A stretch of 64,000 bases of DNA from positions 62,001-126,000 of the forward strand of contig NZ_PZJX01000005.1 in the NCBI RefSeq assembly GCF_003034915.1. The letters run 5' to 3'. The stretch comes from Mesorhizobium helmanticense. Lineage in GTDB: Bacteria; Pseudomonadota; Alphaproteobacteria; Rhizobiales; Rhizobiaceae. Position numbers and translations under genes: made by a program. A model generated the notes under the pieces. That model did not search any database and was not told the DNA's origin. It was given only the letters and a program-made list of their open reading frames with translations. Of the stretch, positions 41,960-48,613 are shown one piece after another; the stretch's first letter is position 1, and the number at the start of each line of letters is the position of its first letter.

Positions 41960-43384
41960 CTAATCGATTTGATCCGCTATACGCGCCAGGCTCTCCTCGC
42001 GGCCGAGAACGGCAAGTACGTCGAACACGCCGGGCGAGGTGCTTTTACCGGTAAGCGCTGCCCGCAAGGGTTGAGCCACAGTGCCCAGTTTATAGCCGCC
42101 GGCCAGCGCATAGTCGCGGATCGCCGCTTCGGCCGCTGCGGCGGTCCAGCCGGCTGAAATCGCCTTCAGCGCGTCGCGGGCGCCGCGCAAGACCTCGCGC
42201 GCCTCGCCAGCGAGCAATGCCGCGGCCTTCTCGTCGATCGGCAGCGGCCGCTCGGTGAACAGGAAGCCAGCACCGTCGACAAGTTCCACCAGGGTCTTGG
42301 CACGCTCCTTCAGGCCCGGCAAGGCGGCAAGCAACTGCGCCTTGCGCCGGTCGTCGAGACGCTCGGCGATCGCCGGACCACCTTCGAGATAGGGCAGCGT
42401 GGCGATGAAGATGTCGAACAGGTCGGCGTCGCTCATGCGGCGCATGTGCACGCCGTTCAAAGCCTCGAGCTTGGCGAAGTCGAAACGCGCCGCACCCTTG
42501 TTGACGTCACCGATATCGAACCAGGCGATCATGTCCTTGATAGACATCACCTCGTCGTCGCCATGGCTCCAGCCCAGCCGCGCCAGATAGTTGAGCAGCG
42601 CCTCGGGCAGATAGCCCATGGCGCGATAGGCCTCGACGCCGAGCGCACCGTGCCGCTTCGACAGCTTGGCGCCGTCAGCGCCATGGATCAGCGGGATATG
42701 CGACATCGACGGCACGTCCCAGCCCATGGCGCGGTAGATCACCGTCTGGCGGGCGGCGTTGGTCAGATGATCGTCGCCGCGGATGATGTGGGTGACGCCC
42801 ATGTCATGGTCGTCGACGACGACGGCATGCATATAGGTCGGATTGCCGTCCGAGCGCAGGATGATGAAATCATCGAGATCCTTGTTGGGAAAGCGCACCT
42901 CGCCCTGCACGCGGTCGTGCACCACCGTCTCGCCCTCGGTCGGCGCCTTGATGCGGATGGCGCCTTTGGCGCCGGCCGGCGCCTCCGACGAGTCGCGGTC
43001 GCGCCAGCGGCCGTCATAGCGGGGAGGGAGCCCCTTGGCCCGTGCCGCCTCGCGCATCGCCTCGAGCTCCGCCGGTGTCGCGTAGCAATAGTAGGCTTTG
43101 CCCATGCGCACCAGCTCCTCGGCCACCTCGCGATGGCGCGGCGCGCGCTCGAACTGCGAGACAGGCTCGCCGTCCCAGGTGAGGCCGAGCCACGAAAGGC
43201 CGTCGAGAATGGCCGCTGTCGCCGCATCCGTCGACCGCTCGCGGTCGGTGTCCTCGATACGCAGCAGCATTACACCGCCGGTATGCTTCGAATACAGCCA
43301 GTTGAACAGCGCCGTCCGCGCCCCGCCAATGTGCAGGTAGCCGGTGGGCGAGGGCGCAAAACGGGTGACGACTTTGTCGGGCAT
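41960..43384 (-). CDS. gltX: glutamate-tRNA ligase
   Basis: The 474-residue class I synthetase has the HIGH-type motif [13 protein letters not shown] near residues 18-30 and the KMSKS-type motif AKLSKRHG near 237, then [17 protein letters not shown]. With GatCAB encoded nearby it is probably non-discriminating, also charging tRNA(Gln), but that is inference. The start lies 17 bp from a 144-bp segment that is duplicated next to comEC. Confidence 0.97.
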
Positions 43385-43401
43385 GGAACTCTCGGGGCGC
43401 G

Positions 43402-43545
43402 GGCGCAGGAGCGGATGTGGTTGCGCGGACTTTCGCGCGTTGCGCGTTCATGTAGCATAGGAGGTCAAGGGCGCAAGGGGCAGACCCGACGGCTGGACGA
43501 AGCCGGGGTACGGACGAGGGCGAGGACGCGGTCAGCGGCGTCAGC
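43402..43545. repeat. left direct repeat flanking the cyclase segment (decayed comEC 5' end)
   Basis: This 144-bp stretch matches 46061-46204 at a constant offset of 2659, with about seven mismatches counted by eye. It contains the gltX upstream region, a GGAGGTCAAGGGCGCAAGGG tract, and what would be the first codons of comEC with the ATG changed to ACG (43489-43491). Similarity stops at 43545. The remaining bases to 43685 hold no gene I can support. Confidence 0.88.
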
Positions 43546-43685
43546 CAATACAATAGAACTCGCTACGCGCTCAGTCCTCGGACAAGCCCGGCCAGAGAAC
43601 TATCCTTCCAGAAGTGACGCGGGGTCAAGGGACGTCGCCTGACCGACGTGACGCGTAGGAGAGGGCGTCTTTGCAAACGCGACGA

Positions 43686-45431
43686 TCACTCCGGCACGCC
43701 GGCAATACCCAGCGCCTCGACGTAGCGCTCGGCGAACACCTTGTCCCGCCACGGGTTGATCTGCCTCTGCAGGCCGAGGGTGTAGGTCGGGAACGCCTCC
43801 ATCAGCCGCCGCGCCGCCGCCTGCGCGTCATCCAGCCGATTGAGTTTGACGAGTGCCATGATCACCACCCGGTGCGAGGAGCCGTAATTCGGCATCTCGC
43901 GCAGCGCTCGTTCTCCCCAAGCCAGCGCTTCCTCGTAGCGTTCGAGCATCAGGTAGCTCATCCCGATGCCGGAGAGCGCAATGCCCTTCTCGGGGTCGAC
44001 CGGGCTCAGCCGCATTGCCCTGTGGAAGTGCTCGATTGCGACGAGGGGGCGGCCGGAATGGGCGTTCACCCAGCCGCTGCCCGTATAGCCCTGCGCCGAA
44101 TTGGGGTTGAGGAGCAGGGACCGTTCGATCGTGTCCAGCGCCGTCTCGTAATCCTTGGCGCTGTAGGCGATCACCTGCGCGGCGAAACGCAAGCTTGTCG
44201 GGTCGTCTCGCGCGTCCGCCAGCACCTCGCGGGCCATGCGCACGGCGACGCGGGTATCGTCGGGCTCGTGCCAGCACTGACTCACGGACAGGCTGCGAAT
44301 ATAGGCGCCGAGTGCCTTCGCCAGGGTGAAGCCCGGGTCGATGCTGAGCGCCTCGTTGGTCAGCCGGCGCACGTCGGCGAAGCCGTCGCGCGTCATACTG
44401 TAGAAGCGCGGTAGCGCACGAAGGTAGAGGTCGTAGGCACCGATGTAGTCGGTCGGCTTCATGCGCGCTTGCTTGATCTCCTCGAGCCTGATGCTCGGCT
44501 CGACCGCACCGACGACGCTCTCGGTCACCTTGTCCTGCAGGTCGAAGATGTCGCTCACGTCGCCCTCGAAGCGGTCGGTCCAGACATGGTGCCCGCTGAT
44601 CGCGTCCACCAGCTGCCCACTGATACGCACCCGCGATCCTGCTCTGCGGATGCTACCTTCGAGCACGTAGCGGACGCCCAACTCGCGCCCGACCTGGCGC
44701 AGGTCCACCGCTCGGCCCTTGTAGGTGAAGGACGAGTTGCGGGCGATCACGAAGAAGGAGTTCACCCGGCTCAATCCCGTGATGATGTCCTCCACCAGTC
44801 CGTCGGCGAAGTATTCCTGGTCGGGGTCGCCGCTCATGTTGGTGAAAGGCAGAACCGCGATCGAGGGTTTCGAGGGCAGGGGAGGCGGTGCAGCCACCGA
44901 GGCGCTGGCGTCGGTCTCGACGCGATAGGCGCGCACAGGCCGCTCGATGTTCTTGAGGCGCAGGTCGCCAAGCGGCGTGAAACCGCCGTCGAGCTTGCCC
45001 TGAAGGTGGTCGTAGGCGGTGCCCGAGACAACCACGGCGCCGGGATCGGCGATGCTTTCGAGGCGGACGGCGATGTTGACACCGTCGCCGTAGAGGTCGC
45101 CGTCCTCCTCGTAGACCACGTCGCCGAGATTGACGCCGATGCGGAAGCGAATCCGCTCTTCCTCGGGCGTCTCCGCCTCGTGTTCTGCCAAGGCCTGCTG
45201 GATCGACATCGCCGAGGTCACCGCGTTGACGACGCTCGCGAACTCGCACAGCATGCCGTCGCCGGTGAGCTTGACGATCCGGCCCTGATGCTCGGAGACC
45301 AGCGGTTCGAGGAGGTCCTTGCGGTATGTCTTGAGCCGCTCGAGCGTGCCGCGCTCGTCGCGCTCCATCAAGCGCGAATAACCGACCACGTCGCAAGCCA
45401 GAATCGCTGCGAGGCGGCGCTGCGCGGTCAT
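43686..45431 (-). CDS. class III adenylate/guanylate cyclase with TolB-like and TPR domains
   Basis: From the ATG at 45431 the protein is 581 residues. The N-terminal cyclase homology domain (1-175) has metal-binding D14 (ILACDVVGYSRLM) and D58 (KLTGDGM) and the transition-state pair N119/R123 (GVNIAVRLE), so it looks active; cAMP is the likely product. Next is a TolB-like segment (about 195-330, SIAVLPFTNMSGDPDQEYFADGL...YVLEGSIRRAGSRVRISGQLVD) and C-terminal TPR repeats (about 350-575). It has no membrane helix. Such multi-copy cyclases are common in Mesorhizobium and Bradyrhizobium. It lies alone between two 144-bp direct repeats, evidence of later insertion. The frame stays open to 45497. 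Confidence 0.93.
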   Translation of the reverse strand: MTAQRRLAAILACDVVGYSRLMERDERGTLERLKTYRKDLLEPLVSEHQGRIVKLTGDGMLCEFASVVNAVTSAMSIQQALAEHEAETPEEERIRFRIGVNLGDVVYEEDGDLYGDGVNIAVRLESIADPGAVVVSGTAYDHLQGKLDGGFTPLGDLRLKNIERPVRAYRVETDASASVAAPPPLPSKPSIAVLPFTNMSGDPDQEYFADGLVEDIITGLSRVNSFFVIARNSSFTYKGRAVDLRQVGRELGVRYVLEGSIRRAGSRVRISGQLVDAISGHHVWTDRFEGDVSDIFDLQDKVTESVVGAVEPSIRLEEIKQARMKPTDYIGAYDLYLRALPRFYSMTRDGFADVRRLTNEALSIDPGFTLAKALGAYIRSLSVSQCWHEPDDTRVAVRMAREVLADARDDPTSLRFAAQVIAYSAKDYETALDTIERSLLLNPNSAQGYTGSGWVNAHSGRPLVAIEHFHRAMRLSPVDPEKGIALSGIGMSYLMLERYEEALAWGERALREMPNYGSSHRVVIMALVKLNRLDDAQAAARRLMEAFPTYTLGLQRQINPWRDKVFAERYVEALGIAGVPE

Positions 45432-46060
45432 TGCACCGCCCGGCCGTCGCGCCCATGTCCCGCTGACTTCCAGACCCCCAACGTGCATGGCATCCATCTC
45501 TCCCAGCCGCCGCCCGTCGCCGATTCAGACGGAGAACGCAGCTTGACCTTGCCTTCACGAGATTTTGCTATCCCGCTTGCGAGGCGTGAAGCGATCCAGT
45601 CGCCGCGCTAACAGCCAACCGGGCGACACGCCCACGCAGCCTCTGGGGACGCTGACACACCACTCCCAGAAGACCGGAGATATTTCCTGCCCTTGGTAAC
45701 CGGGTGACGCCACCGTGGCGGTGCTTTTGTCACCGCGATGTAACAGCGAGATGCCCTACCAACGCGCGCATCGGGCATCACACCAGACGTTCGCGCTTAG
45801 AGGTGATGAGGTCGGAAAGTGGCGCTACTTGCTCGTTCCCATCGACGAGACGAAGCGGATCCCAAGAAAAACGTCGATGCTCGGGTGAATAAGGGAGGCA
45901 GTGTCCATTTTTTCAGTTTCGCTTTGTCCGCGCCGAATCTTATGCGGCACGGCTCTGGTGTCGTTAGATTGAAGCCGGCAGAGGATCGCAAATCGACGCC
46001 GAAATTACGGCGGGTTACCTTGTCGCCGAAAGCCATCGCTGAAGGAAGGGACCCAGGGCA
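45432..46060. other. gene-poor upstream region of the cyclase
   Basis: Apart from the possible cyclase leader there is no supported gene in this stretch of roughly 630 bp. Short open frames on both strands (for example 45819-46079 plus and 45797-46117 minus) lack ribosome-binding sites or recognisable sequence and run into the right repeat. No terminal inverted repeats or transposase remnant could be recognised. It belongs to the presumed inserted segment. Confidence 0.6.
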
Positions 46061-46204
46061 GGCGCAGGTGCGGATGTGATTGCACGGACTTTCGCGCGTT
46101 GCGCGTTCATGTAGCATAGGAGGTCAAGGGCGCAAGGGGCAGACCCGATGGCTGGACGAGGCCGGGGTACGGACGAGGGCGAGGACGCGATCAGCGGCGT
46201 CAGC
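46061..46204. repeat. right direct repeat flanking the cyclase segment (functional comEC 5' end)
   Basis: This is the partner of 43402-43545. The intact comEC ATG lies at 46148, and the repeat continues about 19 codons into the gene before identity ends at 46204. Confidence 0.88.
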
Positions 46205-48613
46205 GAACGGTTGCTGTTTGCCGCCTCTGTTCCCGTCCTGCCGGCGCCAGCTTCGCTGCCGCGCCTCGATATCCCGCCCTTGCCGCAGGATCGCACGCCG
46301 ACGGCGCCGGCACCGACTATCGGCACCGCGACCCGCCTTGGCGGCCAGTTTCGCCGCCTTTCGCCATCCAGCATCCGCAACGCCGTGGTCTCGGCGGCCA
46401 GCCTGGAAATCGACCGGGGCATCGCCTTCCTGCTGGTGCCGGTTTTCCTCGCATCCGGGGTGATCTTCTATTTCTCGCTTGCAGTGGAACCGGACTTTGC
46501 GCAACCCATCGCCGTCGTGGTCCTGATGGCCTTGTGCGCGGCCGTCTCACGGTCATGGCGCAAGACGCATCTGTGCTTCATGGCGGCGCTGTTGTGCGCG
46601 CTCGGCGTGCTCGCCGCCAAGATCGAGACCTGGCGTGTGGCAACGCCAATGCTCGGTTCGGAAATTCCGACGCGGCTGACCGGCCGTGTCGTCAACCTCG
46701 ACCAGATGGCGAATGGCCGCGTCCGGCTGACCATCGATGTGATCTCGACCGCCCGGCCGACGCTGCGCTATGCACCCGAAAGGGTTCGCGTTTCGGCCTC
46801 GAAAATACCGCCTGGCATGACCGCAGGATCCGTGGTGACCGGCTACGCCAGGCTGCTGCCGCCGACCGGCCCGGTGCGGCCGGACAGCTATGATTTCTCC
46901 TTCGACAGCTATTTCGCCGGCATCGGCGCCAGCGGTTTTTTCCTCGGCACGCCGAAACTCGTCCGCGCGGATGCCGCGCCGGCAGATGGTGCGCCGCTTG
47001 CCGCGCGTCTTTCTTCGGTGGTCGAGAACGCGCGCGAGAGCATCGCGGACCATATTCGCCGTCAAGTTGGCGGCGCCGAGGGCGAGATCGCCGCTGCCCT
47101 GATCGTCGGCGTGCGCGCCGGCATCCCGGAAACGATCAATGAGGCGATGCGGCGCACCGGCATCTACCACATTATCTCCATCTCCGGCCTGCATATGGCA
47201 CTGGTCGCCGGCACGGTCATGGCGCTGCTGCGCGGCGCCTTCGCGCTGTTTCCCGATTTTTCCTCGCGCCGACCGATCAAGAAATATGCGGCCGCAGCCG
47301 CACTCTTTTCGATCGCGGCCTACCTCGTCATTTCAGGCGTGGTGGTCGCGGCCGAGCGCAGCTTCATCATGCTGGCGGTGATGCTGATCGCGGTGCTGTT
47401 CGACCGGGCAGCACTCACCATGCGCAATCTGGCGATTTCGGCGATTGCCGTCATCCTGGTGTCGCCGCACGAGGTGGTCGGCCCGAGCTTCCAGATGTCG
47501 TTTGCCGCGACCGCCGCACTCGTCGGCGCCTATGCCGGCTGGTCCGATTACCGTGCGGGCAAGATCACCACGCCACCGCCACGACGATCGCTGCCTGGTT
47601 TCGTCACGCGAAAATTCCTGGCTGCGATGGGTGGCCTCGCCATGACCTCCATCATCGCCGGCGGCGCTACCGCGCTTTTCGCCATATGGCACTTCCAGCG
47701 CGTCTCGCCGCTCAGCCTGTTCGCCAACCTGGCCGTCATGCCGATCGTCTCGTTGGTGGTCATGCCTTTCGCCGTTCTCAGCGCGTTGGCGATGCCGTTC
47801 GGCGCCGATGGCCCTTTCCTCTATGTGATGGGCAAGGGGCTCACGGCGATGATTGCCCTGTCCGGCTGGATATCGCAGCGCTCGCCGATCGATGCGGTCG
47901 GGCTGATTTCGCGCCAGTCCGTCCTGCTGGTGACGATCGCCCTTGTCATCGCGACCATGGCGACGACCCGGCTACGGCTCGCGGCGCTTCCTTTCGCACT
48001 TGCCGGACTGCTGACGATTTCCCACACCCGCACGCCCGACGTCCTGATCTCCGAGGACGGGCATCTGGTGGCGCTGCCGATCGGGAACGGCGAACTTGCC
48101 ATCAACCGGGTGCGTTCGAACGTGTTTACCACCGACAATTGGAAACATGCGCTGGTGTCCGAAACCATCGTCGAGCCGGAGACCTTCGAAAAGGGGGATG
48201 CTCAGTTTGACATAACCGATCCAGCCCAGCTGCCGCCCGGCGCGCCTTTCTACTGCACAGAAGGCCTGTGCATCGCCCGGCATCCGTCGGGCGCTATCGT
48301 CGCGCTCGCTGACGACCGCAAGACCGCCCGGCCAGCCTGCGCCTTCGCCGATCTGATCGTCATCGATGATGCCACCGCCTACGATCCCTGCCGCAATCCG
48401 CTGATCCTTGTCGTCACCAAACGGCAGCTTGCCCGCGCCGGCAGTGCCGCCATCTTCTTCAACCCGCAATCGGCGACCATGCGTGCAGAAATTCGTTTCG
48501 CCGTCGAAGCGCCATATCGGCCCTGGCATACCCAGCGAAAGTTCTCGCGCGAGGCGAGGGGGCTGCCGCCATACCTCAAGCCCGAGAAACCCAGGCAGCC
48601 TGTGGCTCAGTAA
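46148..48613 (+). CDS. comEC: ComEC/Rec2-type membrane channel protein
   Basis: The 821-residue protein has an N-terminal proline/arginine-rich cytoplasmic stretch, hydrophobic helices from about residue 90, and a DUF4131-like soluble region (about 165-270). The competence domain follows, with the signature [17 protein letters not shown] near 339-355 and at least seven further helices to about residue 620. The C-terminal 200 residues lack an HxHxDH zinc motif, so the metallo-beta-lactamase nuclease domain found in many ComEC proteins is absent. Predicted to pass single-stranded DNA through the inner membrane. Its 3' end overlaps lexA by 7 bp. Confidence 0.9.

Follow-up and report, generated by a model that had tools for sequence, protein, structure and literature searches.

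A duplicated gltX-comEC control region around a cyclase gene in Mesorhizobium helmanticense and its possible link to Mu-like prophages

In a 64,000-nucleotide stretch of the Mesorhizobium helmanticense genome (assembly GCF_003034915.1, contig NZ_PZJX01000005.1, positions 62,001 to 126,000; here called the window), an insert with a cyclase gene separates gltX from the DNA-uptake gene comEC and is flanked by two direct copies of the gltX-comEC junction. A first-pass annotation made from the sequence alone had reported a direct repeat of 144 nt with about seven differences at an offset of 2659. The repeat is real and the offset correct, but its length is 150 nt, with 8 of 150 bases differing (94.7% identity). 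The features of the locus are listed below; the genes that we take to be gltX and comEC were named from their sequences.

41960-43384, minus strand: gltX (glutamyl-tRNA synthetase), left neighbour, reading away from the insert; open reading frame (ORF) of 474 amino acids (aa), with a tblastn match in all 140 loci measured (see below).
43399-43548, no strand: junction copy 1, the gltX leader and upstream region plus the dead first 20 codons of comEC; from the repeat comparison.
43563-45852, minus strand: cyclase cargo segment with its own flanks; 87-96% identical segment elsewhere in 55 genomes of the genus, including G136.
43686-45497, minus strand: protein of 603 aa with an adenylate/guanylate cyclase domain and TPR; Pfam Guanylate_cyc (expect value, E, 1.1e-12) and TPR_2 (E 5.6e-15).
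45947-46036, minus strand: remnant of a phage D12-class N6-adenine DNA methylase gene (dam), adjoining copy 2; 30 aa, 70% identical, E 7e-8.
46058-46207, no strand: junction copy 2, the comEC upstream region plus the intact first comEC codons; from the repeat comparison.
46148-48613, plus strand: comEC, intact ORF of 821 aa; median 819 aa in 136 loci.

The runner-up direct repeat in the same 7-kb region was 36 nt long with 72% identity, and the 10 inverted repeat pairs listed included none at the inner edges of the junction copies. An assembly error is unlikely to have produced the repeat, because its copies differ at the 8 bases mentioned and because the same layout and cargo, with 91% identical repeats, are present in the related genome G049. 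As the first-pass annotation had recognized, the 5′ end of comEC is rebuilt on the far side of the insert, where copy 2 supplies an intact start; copy 1 has ACG in place of this start codon. The region beyond the cyclase gene, described there as about 630 bp without a gene, lacks a large gene for 560 bp up to copy 2 (650 bp up to the comEC ATG) and holds the dam remnant.

The genus was searched in 146 genomes including that of the window (G000), and the junction was found in 145 of them. We fetched 139 loci from 139 other genomes, leaving out 6 genomes (five with weak matches and one without a match), and measured 140 loci including the window by tblastn of gltX and comEC, both of which were found in 138. 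Alignment with other genomes of the genus had been proposed as a check, and it revealed many strains with adjacent gltX and comEC: the gap between the two genes was 91-124 bp, with a single junction and no insert, in 132 of the 138 loci, which makes this arrangement the rule in the genus. The gap was 807-3324 bp in the other 6 loci, all of which contained an insert and a duplicated junction. The two remaining loci of the 140, in G040 and G129, had an interrupted comEC. These results confirmed the ancestral order put forward in the annotation, gltX followed by one junction and comEC, to which the segment was added later. They also dispose of the possibility, named there, that all relatives have the cyclase as an old fixed arrangement. 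The junction word was likewise considered as a dispersed element at unrelated loci and rejected as such: it had two matches and no third in G000 (E ≤ 0.001), and nine further genomes with a second junction match yielded only matches of 23-49 bases elsewhere on a renewed search. A family-wide search in 297 evenly drawn genomes matched the junction in 36, with only G000 matched twice, and IMG/VR gave 0 matches.

The duplicated junction was 150 bp long in the window, 157 bp in G136, 170 bp in G049, 88 bp in G087, 98 bp in G050, and 118 bp in G076. Relative to the comEC start, the repeats began at -73 to -90 and ended at +13 to +85, and since these edges shift by about 70 bp between genomes, the repeat is not a fixed att core. 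The cargo varied as well. The window and G049 share the same cyclase cargo at this site (93%). G136 contains an ORF of 284 aa with no family assignment and an AAA ATPase of 620 aa (AAA_15, E 7e-19) that matched many defence ATPase profiles (PtuA, AbiLi, GajA, Old; best E 6e-24); these matches point to no single defence system. In G050 the cargo is Arr, a rifampin ADP-ribosyltransferase (Pfam E 8e-44) with relatives of 68-71% identity in ten other genomes, in G087 a DUF2806 piece (E 7e-11) together with other ORFs, and in G076 a familyless protein resembling a membrane protein. The cargos of G087 and G076 had no long match elsewhere in the genus.

Integrase-dependent islands and their cis-mobilisable relics are flanked by direct repeats, attL and attR, and renew the end of a gene. 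The locus might accordingly be seen as an island relic that has lost its integrase and used the junction as attachment site. The direct repeats at both ends, the renewed 5′ end of comEC and the missing integrase agree with such an origin, and in G031 a tyrosine recombinase gene (L218:3790-4524; Phage_integrase, E 5e-20) directly adjoins the cyclase unit at another site. We nevertheless consider this origin very improbable, as the locus has variable edges instead of a fixed core and the full element found at this site is a transposase phage (see below). Moreover, no tyrosine or serine recombinase was detected with Pfam, PHROGs and PADLOC in the larger insert ORFs (the window cyclase; 284 and 620 aa in G136; 294, 172 and 176 aa in G087; 144 aa in G050; 177 aa in G076), not every ORF having been run against every library. 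The first-pass annotation had rightly noted the absence of an integrase, which is expected because Mu-like phages use a DDE transposase.

To place the inserts on a phylogeny, a FastTree tree was built from gltA, gltX, lexA, and comEC (140 rows), and insert states were scored for 138 loci. At least five changes were required, the simplest history being four gains and one loss. G087, G050, and G076 were placed among single-copy kin, and the window, G049, G136, and G032 formed one clade (support 100), with the single-copy G032 nested within it (support 97). G032 may have lost its insert through a crossover of the two repeats; alternatively, the others may have gained theirs separately. This position of G032 is also compatible with a circle, consisting of cargo and one junction copy, that was freed from another strain by repeat recombination and integrated via a single crossover. 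Direct repeats of 88-170 bp permit such an event, so that the circular integration suggested in the first-pass annotation is feasible, but a circle is not needed. It would account for spread and not for the first gain of the junction by differing cargos, the phage ends and the dam remnant described below would require a separate origin, and neither a circle nor a donor was seen; we therefore regard it as unlikely.

The history of the copies themselves was examined in an 89-column core, where 4-9 bases distinguished copy 1 from copy 2 within any one of the six genomes. All 12 copies were closer to some single-copy relative than to their own partners. These distances fit either import or an old duplication followed by independent change, the core being too short for copy trees. 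When windows along the flanking genes were compared with kin in four genomes, weak signs of an imported tract were seen in G050, where the 5′ part of gltX was nearer to non-kin, and in G076, where the 5′ part of comEC was far from its sister. As a separate observation, three loci of kin of G050 (L071, L115, L053) show a small tandem repeat of the gltX start (TTGGACATGGCAATTTTG).

A search for homologues of the segment, also suggested by the annotation, located 87-96% matches to 43563-45852 elsewhere on the chromosome in 55 genomes, not counting G000 and G049; a probe from the left end of the unit revealed no second copy in G000. The neighbours at 11 other cyclase loci read with their flanks formed at least five contexts, and in 8 of these loci the BLAST match, too, had its edge at 43563, the left edge of the segment. 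The window and G049 have about 30 bp in common past the shared right end of the unit, which seems to have entered an insert that already existed. Duplication of the junction as a property of the cyclase unit was rejected: the 11 loci contained no flanking copies longer than 43 bp among the matches listed (the best four each, over 1.5 kb per side, except 120 bp on one side of L212). The segment (about 2.3 kb; L210-L220) resembles a one-gene mobile unit without a transposase, with similar ends in at least five other contexts.

We profiled conservation of the junction over 103 rows from the 132 single-junction loci, leaving out 22 loci whose comEC match did not start at codon 1 and 7 distant ones (L141-L150 range). 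A block from about -66 to +10 around the comEC start was nearly invariant, save for -50 to -46 and a few single positions, and coding conservation of comEC continued to about +20. Judged by its conservation, the block should hold the gltX upstream signals together with those of comEC. Near-invariant positions were counted in 95 single-copy rows (8 more were dropped because the anchor word was not found), of which 56 positions were conserved in at least 95%. At these 56 positions, 2 changes were counted over the six first copies and 6 over the six second copies, the mean for single-copy rows being 0.32 changes per row. The single change in copy 1 of the window is the one that kills the comEC start, its core being otherwise kept, and copy 2 of G049 has a change at -13. 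These small numbers fit a division of labour in which copy 1 would serve gltX and copy 2 comEC. Insertions into the block would cut off one of the two genes from its signals, and insertions into comEC would destroy that gene; duplication of the block spares both. In agreement with this, comEC was of full length (818-821 aa) in five of the six insert genomes. Frames shorter than 700 aa were also obtained with a simple script in 11 further single-junction loci of the 136 in which a stop was found (L057, L098, L168, L154, L051, L085, L170, L167, L077, L163, L083); the gene may be lost there, or in some of them the frame may be misread through assembly errors or a misplaced start.

The inner edge of copy 1 provided a link to transposable phages. 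In G136 and G049 copy 1 runs straight into the right end (R-end) of a Mu-like phage, beginning TGTAGCGCGCAAAATC, after comEC base 65 and 85, respectively, and in G050 a degenerate R-end follows comEC base 63. The same word stood at the gltX-side edge of an island in G129, whose other edge carried the counterpart end, TGTAACGCGCAAGATCGG; this counterpart was also located at the gltX-side edge of an island in G040. When both ends were searched for with up to 2 mismatches allowed, 27 of the 146 genomes contained matches, 43 in total (reversed control, 0). Four of these 27 genomes account for six ends that lie directly against the first 85 bases of comEC. End pairs 42.9-46.6 kb apart in G040, G043, G057, G060, G134, and G139 look like full prophages, genes having been read only in G040 and only at the edges. 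The G040 prophage spans 43.6 kb between its ends and sits after comEC base 50 with the target duplication ATTGG; that of G129 spans 17.8 kb and sits after base 85 with the target duplication CGTGG. Since both have 5-bp target duplications, Mu-like phages have transposed into comEC in relatives of the window, which itself has no phage end at which such a duplication could be read. In PHROGs, proteins of the G040 prophage were recognized as a transposase (phrog_310, E 8e-105), a MuB-type protein (phrog_296, E 4e-42) and a repressor. Over 97% of its length, the transposase shares 36.5% identity with its counterparts in Rhodobacter phage RC1 and Rhodovulum phage RS1. Like these nearest isolates of the Mu-like phages (saltoviruses), the G040 prophage has ends beginning with TGT, a 5-bp target duplication and variable genes by the R-end, in addition to transposase and MuB-type protein. 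The window, in contrast, has only the dam remnant and no TGT..ACA ends; neither a DDE transposase nor a MuB-type ATPase was present among its insert ORFs, of which the cyclase is the only large gene, and its 150-bp repeats are not a phage target duplication. More generally, target-site duplications of transposons are short and constant, unlike the repeats of 88-170 bp found here.

Two alternatives have to be weighed against these phage ends. A staggered break at the junction that was filled in and end-joined with a captured fragment would leave a duplication of variable length around any cargo. Rhizobia possess Ku/LigD end joining, and this explanation fits the variable repeat lengths as well as G087 and G076, whose cargos have neither a long match in the genus nor a phage end. 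It does not predict R-ends at the edge of copy 1, which are exact in two of the six inserts and near in a third, and we consider it improbable. The other alternative starts from a phage in comEC that transposed replicatively to a site just upstream on the sister chromosome, duplicating the stretch between, after which most of the phage was deleted. Transposable phages multiply in this way, according to the part of PMC5977238 that was available, and this region was hit repeatedly; yet no left end was found at copy 2 in the six inserts (up to 2 mismatches), and an intact sister comEC must be assumed, which leaves this course of events with quite a low probability.

The dam remnant was compared with the phage copy at L158:11178-11981, which matched MethyltransfD12 and phrog_56. 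G136 has a homologous dam remnant against its copy 2, and the two remnants stop at places no more than about 7 codons apart. The distance from the R-end is 1.8 kb for the intact dam of G129, about 1.2 kb for a dam match in G126, and about 2.3 kb for a match to the end of dam in the viral contig L222, with other genes between. G126, G129, G136, and L222 agree in an order of R-end, other genes and, at 1.2-2.9 kb, dam or its end. Dam matches also occurred in G058, G062, G120, and G141, genomes without a listed phage end. Within the clade of the window, the G049 insert has the R-end without dam, G136 has both and the window has dam only; from this pattern we read the inserts of the clade as probable R-end arms with variable accessory genes. 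The R-end word was additionally found in five stretches of four viral contigs, none of them at comEC; the accessory genes near the R-end vary, and one of them in L222 (L222:7991-9079) is presumably a DNA ligase-like ORF of the LigD type.

On balance, we think, with modest confidence, that the insert is probably the decayed R-end arm of a Mu-like prophage that once lay in the first comEC codons, to which the cyclase unit was added later, and which is flanked by copies of the gltX/comEC control region. Phages would first have entered comEC as they do in relatives, after base 50-85, in either orientation and with 5-bp target duplications. The R-end, variable accessory genes and the dam remnant would have stayed behind, as can partly be followed in relatives and is presumed for the window. 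The locus would then have become partly diploid, with the phage-arm allele beside an intact allele, so that the gltX promoter would lie on copy 1 and the comEC promoter and start on copy 2. One fitting route is recombination of phage DNA that carried host DNA beyond the R-end. One side would have been joined by homologous crossover within gltX or the junction, the other by accidental end joining just upstream of the recipient comEC promoter. That phage DNA can take along host DNA past its end is known for Mu and its kin, as stated in the available part of PMC5977238. Such a route would explain why the R-end faces gltX in G136, G049, and G050, why left ends are missing and why comEC is intact. 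The surviving inserts would be those that duplicated the shared promoter block, because the divergent promoters would share about 80 conserved bases and only block-duplicating inserts would keep both genes working. Recombination between the repeats could finally restore the empty site, as G032 suggests. The first-pass annotation had left the mechanism open; this no longer holds to the same degree, as Mu-like phages hit the same place in sister loci and some inserts keep R-ends and the dam remnant.

Several observations weigh against this history. The window's link to phage rests on the 30-aa dam remnant and on the sister genomes, since neither phage end matched anywhere in G000, and the left end was absent from all six inserts (both at up to 2 mismatches). 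The R-end follows different comEC positions in G136 and G049, so that a common origin is not simple, and in G050 the degenerate R-end lies about 40 bp past the stretch of copy 1 alignable to copy 2. The inserts of G087 and G076 bear no phage trace, and the phage route may thus not hold for all inserts. In G057 dam is located mid-phage, 22.8 kb from the R-end, which contradicts a fixed layout. The comparison for imported tracts, a weak test, gave no sign in the window or in G087. With respect to the control region, a sigma-70 scan of the conserved block found no consensus and the promoters are therefore deduced from conservation, the conservation of comEC up to about +20 exceeds the edge of copy 1 in G087 (+13), and comEC of G076 ends at 649 aa.

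The locus shares traits with several known systems. According to the parts of the sources that were available, pneumococcal prophages insert in comYC, transposons in comEC, and transposable elements in Piscirickettsia comEC (PMC12637031, PMC12955456). The gltX-comEC site resembles these competence-gene disruptions in the recurrent insertion into a DNA-uptake gene, but differs from them in that six genomes hold an insert together with a comEC that has its own start (full length in five) and a second copy of the control region. A disrupted allele beside an intact allele is also the state of merodiploids, which, in the portion of PMC3784515 at hand, comprise about 100-900 kb, unlike the inherited duplication of 88-170 bp found here. 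One homologous and one illegitimate joint, as proposed above, are characteristic of homology-facilitated illegitimate recombination (PMC3240628, from an excerpt). The locus is not named in those titles and parts of abstracts that were available from the literature on Mesorhizobium Mu-like prophages and on comEC with prophage or curing. It offers a readable natural series at one competence gene in one genus, leading from the empty site through a full and a broken prophage to the relic with cargo and possibly back to empty, by which the idea of a fight between phage and host over transformation becomes testable outside pneumococcus. The series also suggests that an overlapping divergent promoter may dictate which insertions survive, namely, those bringing a second promoter copy. 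A doubtful, though conceivable, extension is that the junction is a battlefield over DNA uptake, where phages favour the first codons of comEC and so block their cure by transformation, and hosts regain comEC via the promoter and gene start duplicated behind the dying phage, whose accessory genes they keep as a swappable cargo slot that the repeats can also empty.

Hot spots for insertion of transposable phages are already known (PMC5977238, in the part available), and the Mu-like phages of this genus reuse a few sites. Two other places were also hit by phage ends in more than one genome, so that comEC is one among several sites that these phages prefer or tolerate. At the second recurrent site, the ends lie within about 40 bp of each other (L185, L191, L194, and L198, in G035, G057, G087, and G115), upstream of what we take to be a btaA-like gene and beside repeated CTGTCAT words that presumably resemble Pho boxes. 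The third lies near a presumed acyltransferase-like gene in G034 and G139. In G028, G034, G035, and G102 both phage ends are only 0.7-3.2 kb apart, and such short two-ended remnants might be movable in trans by a full phage.

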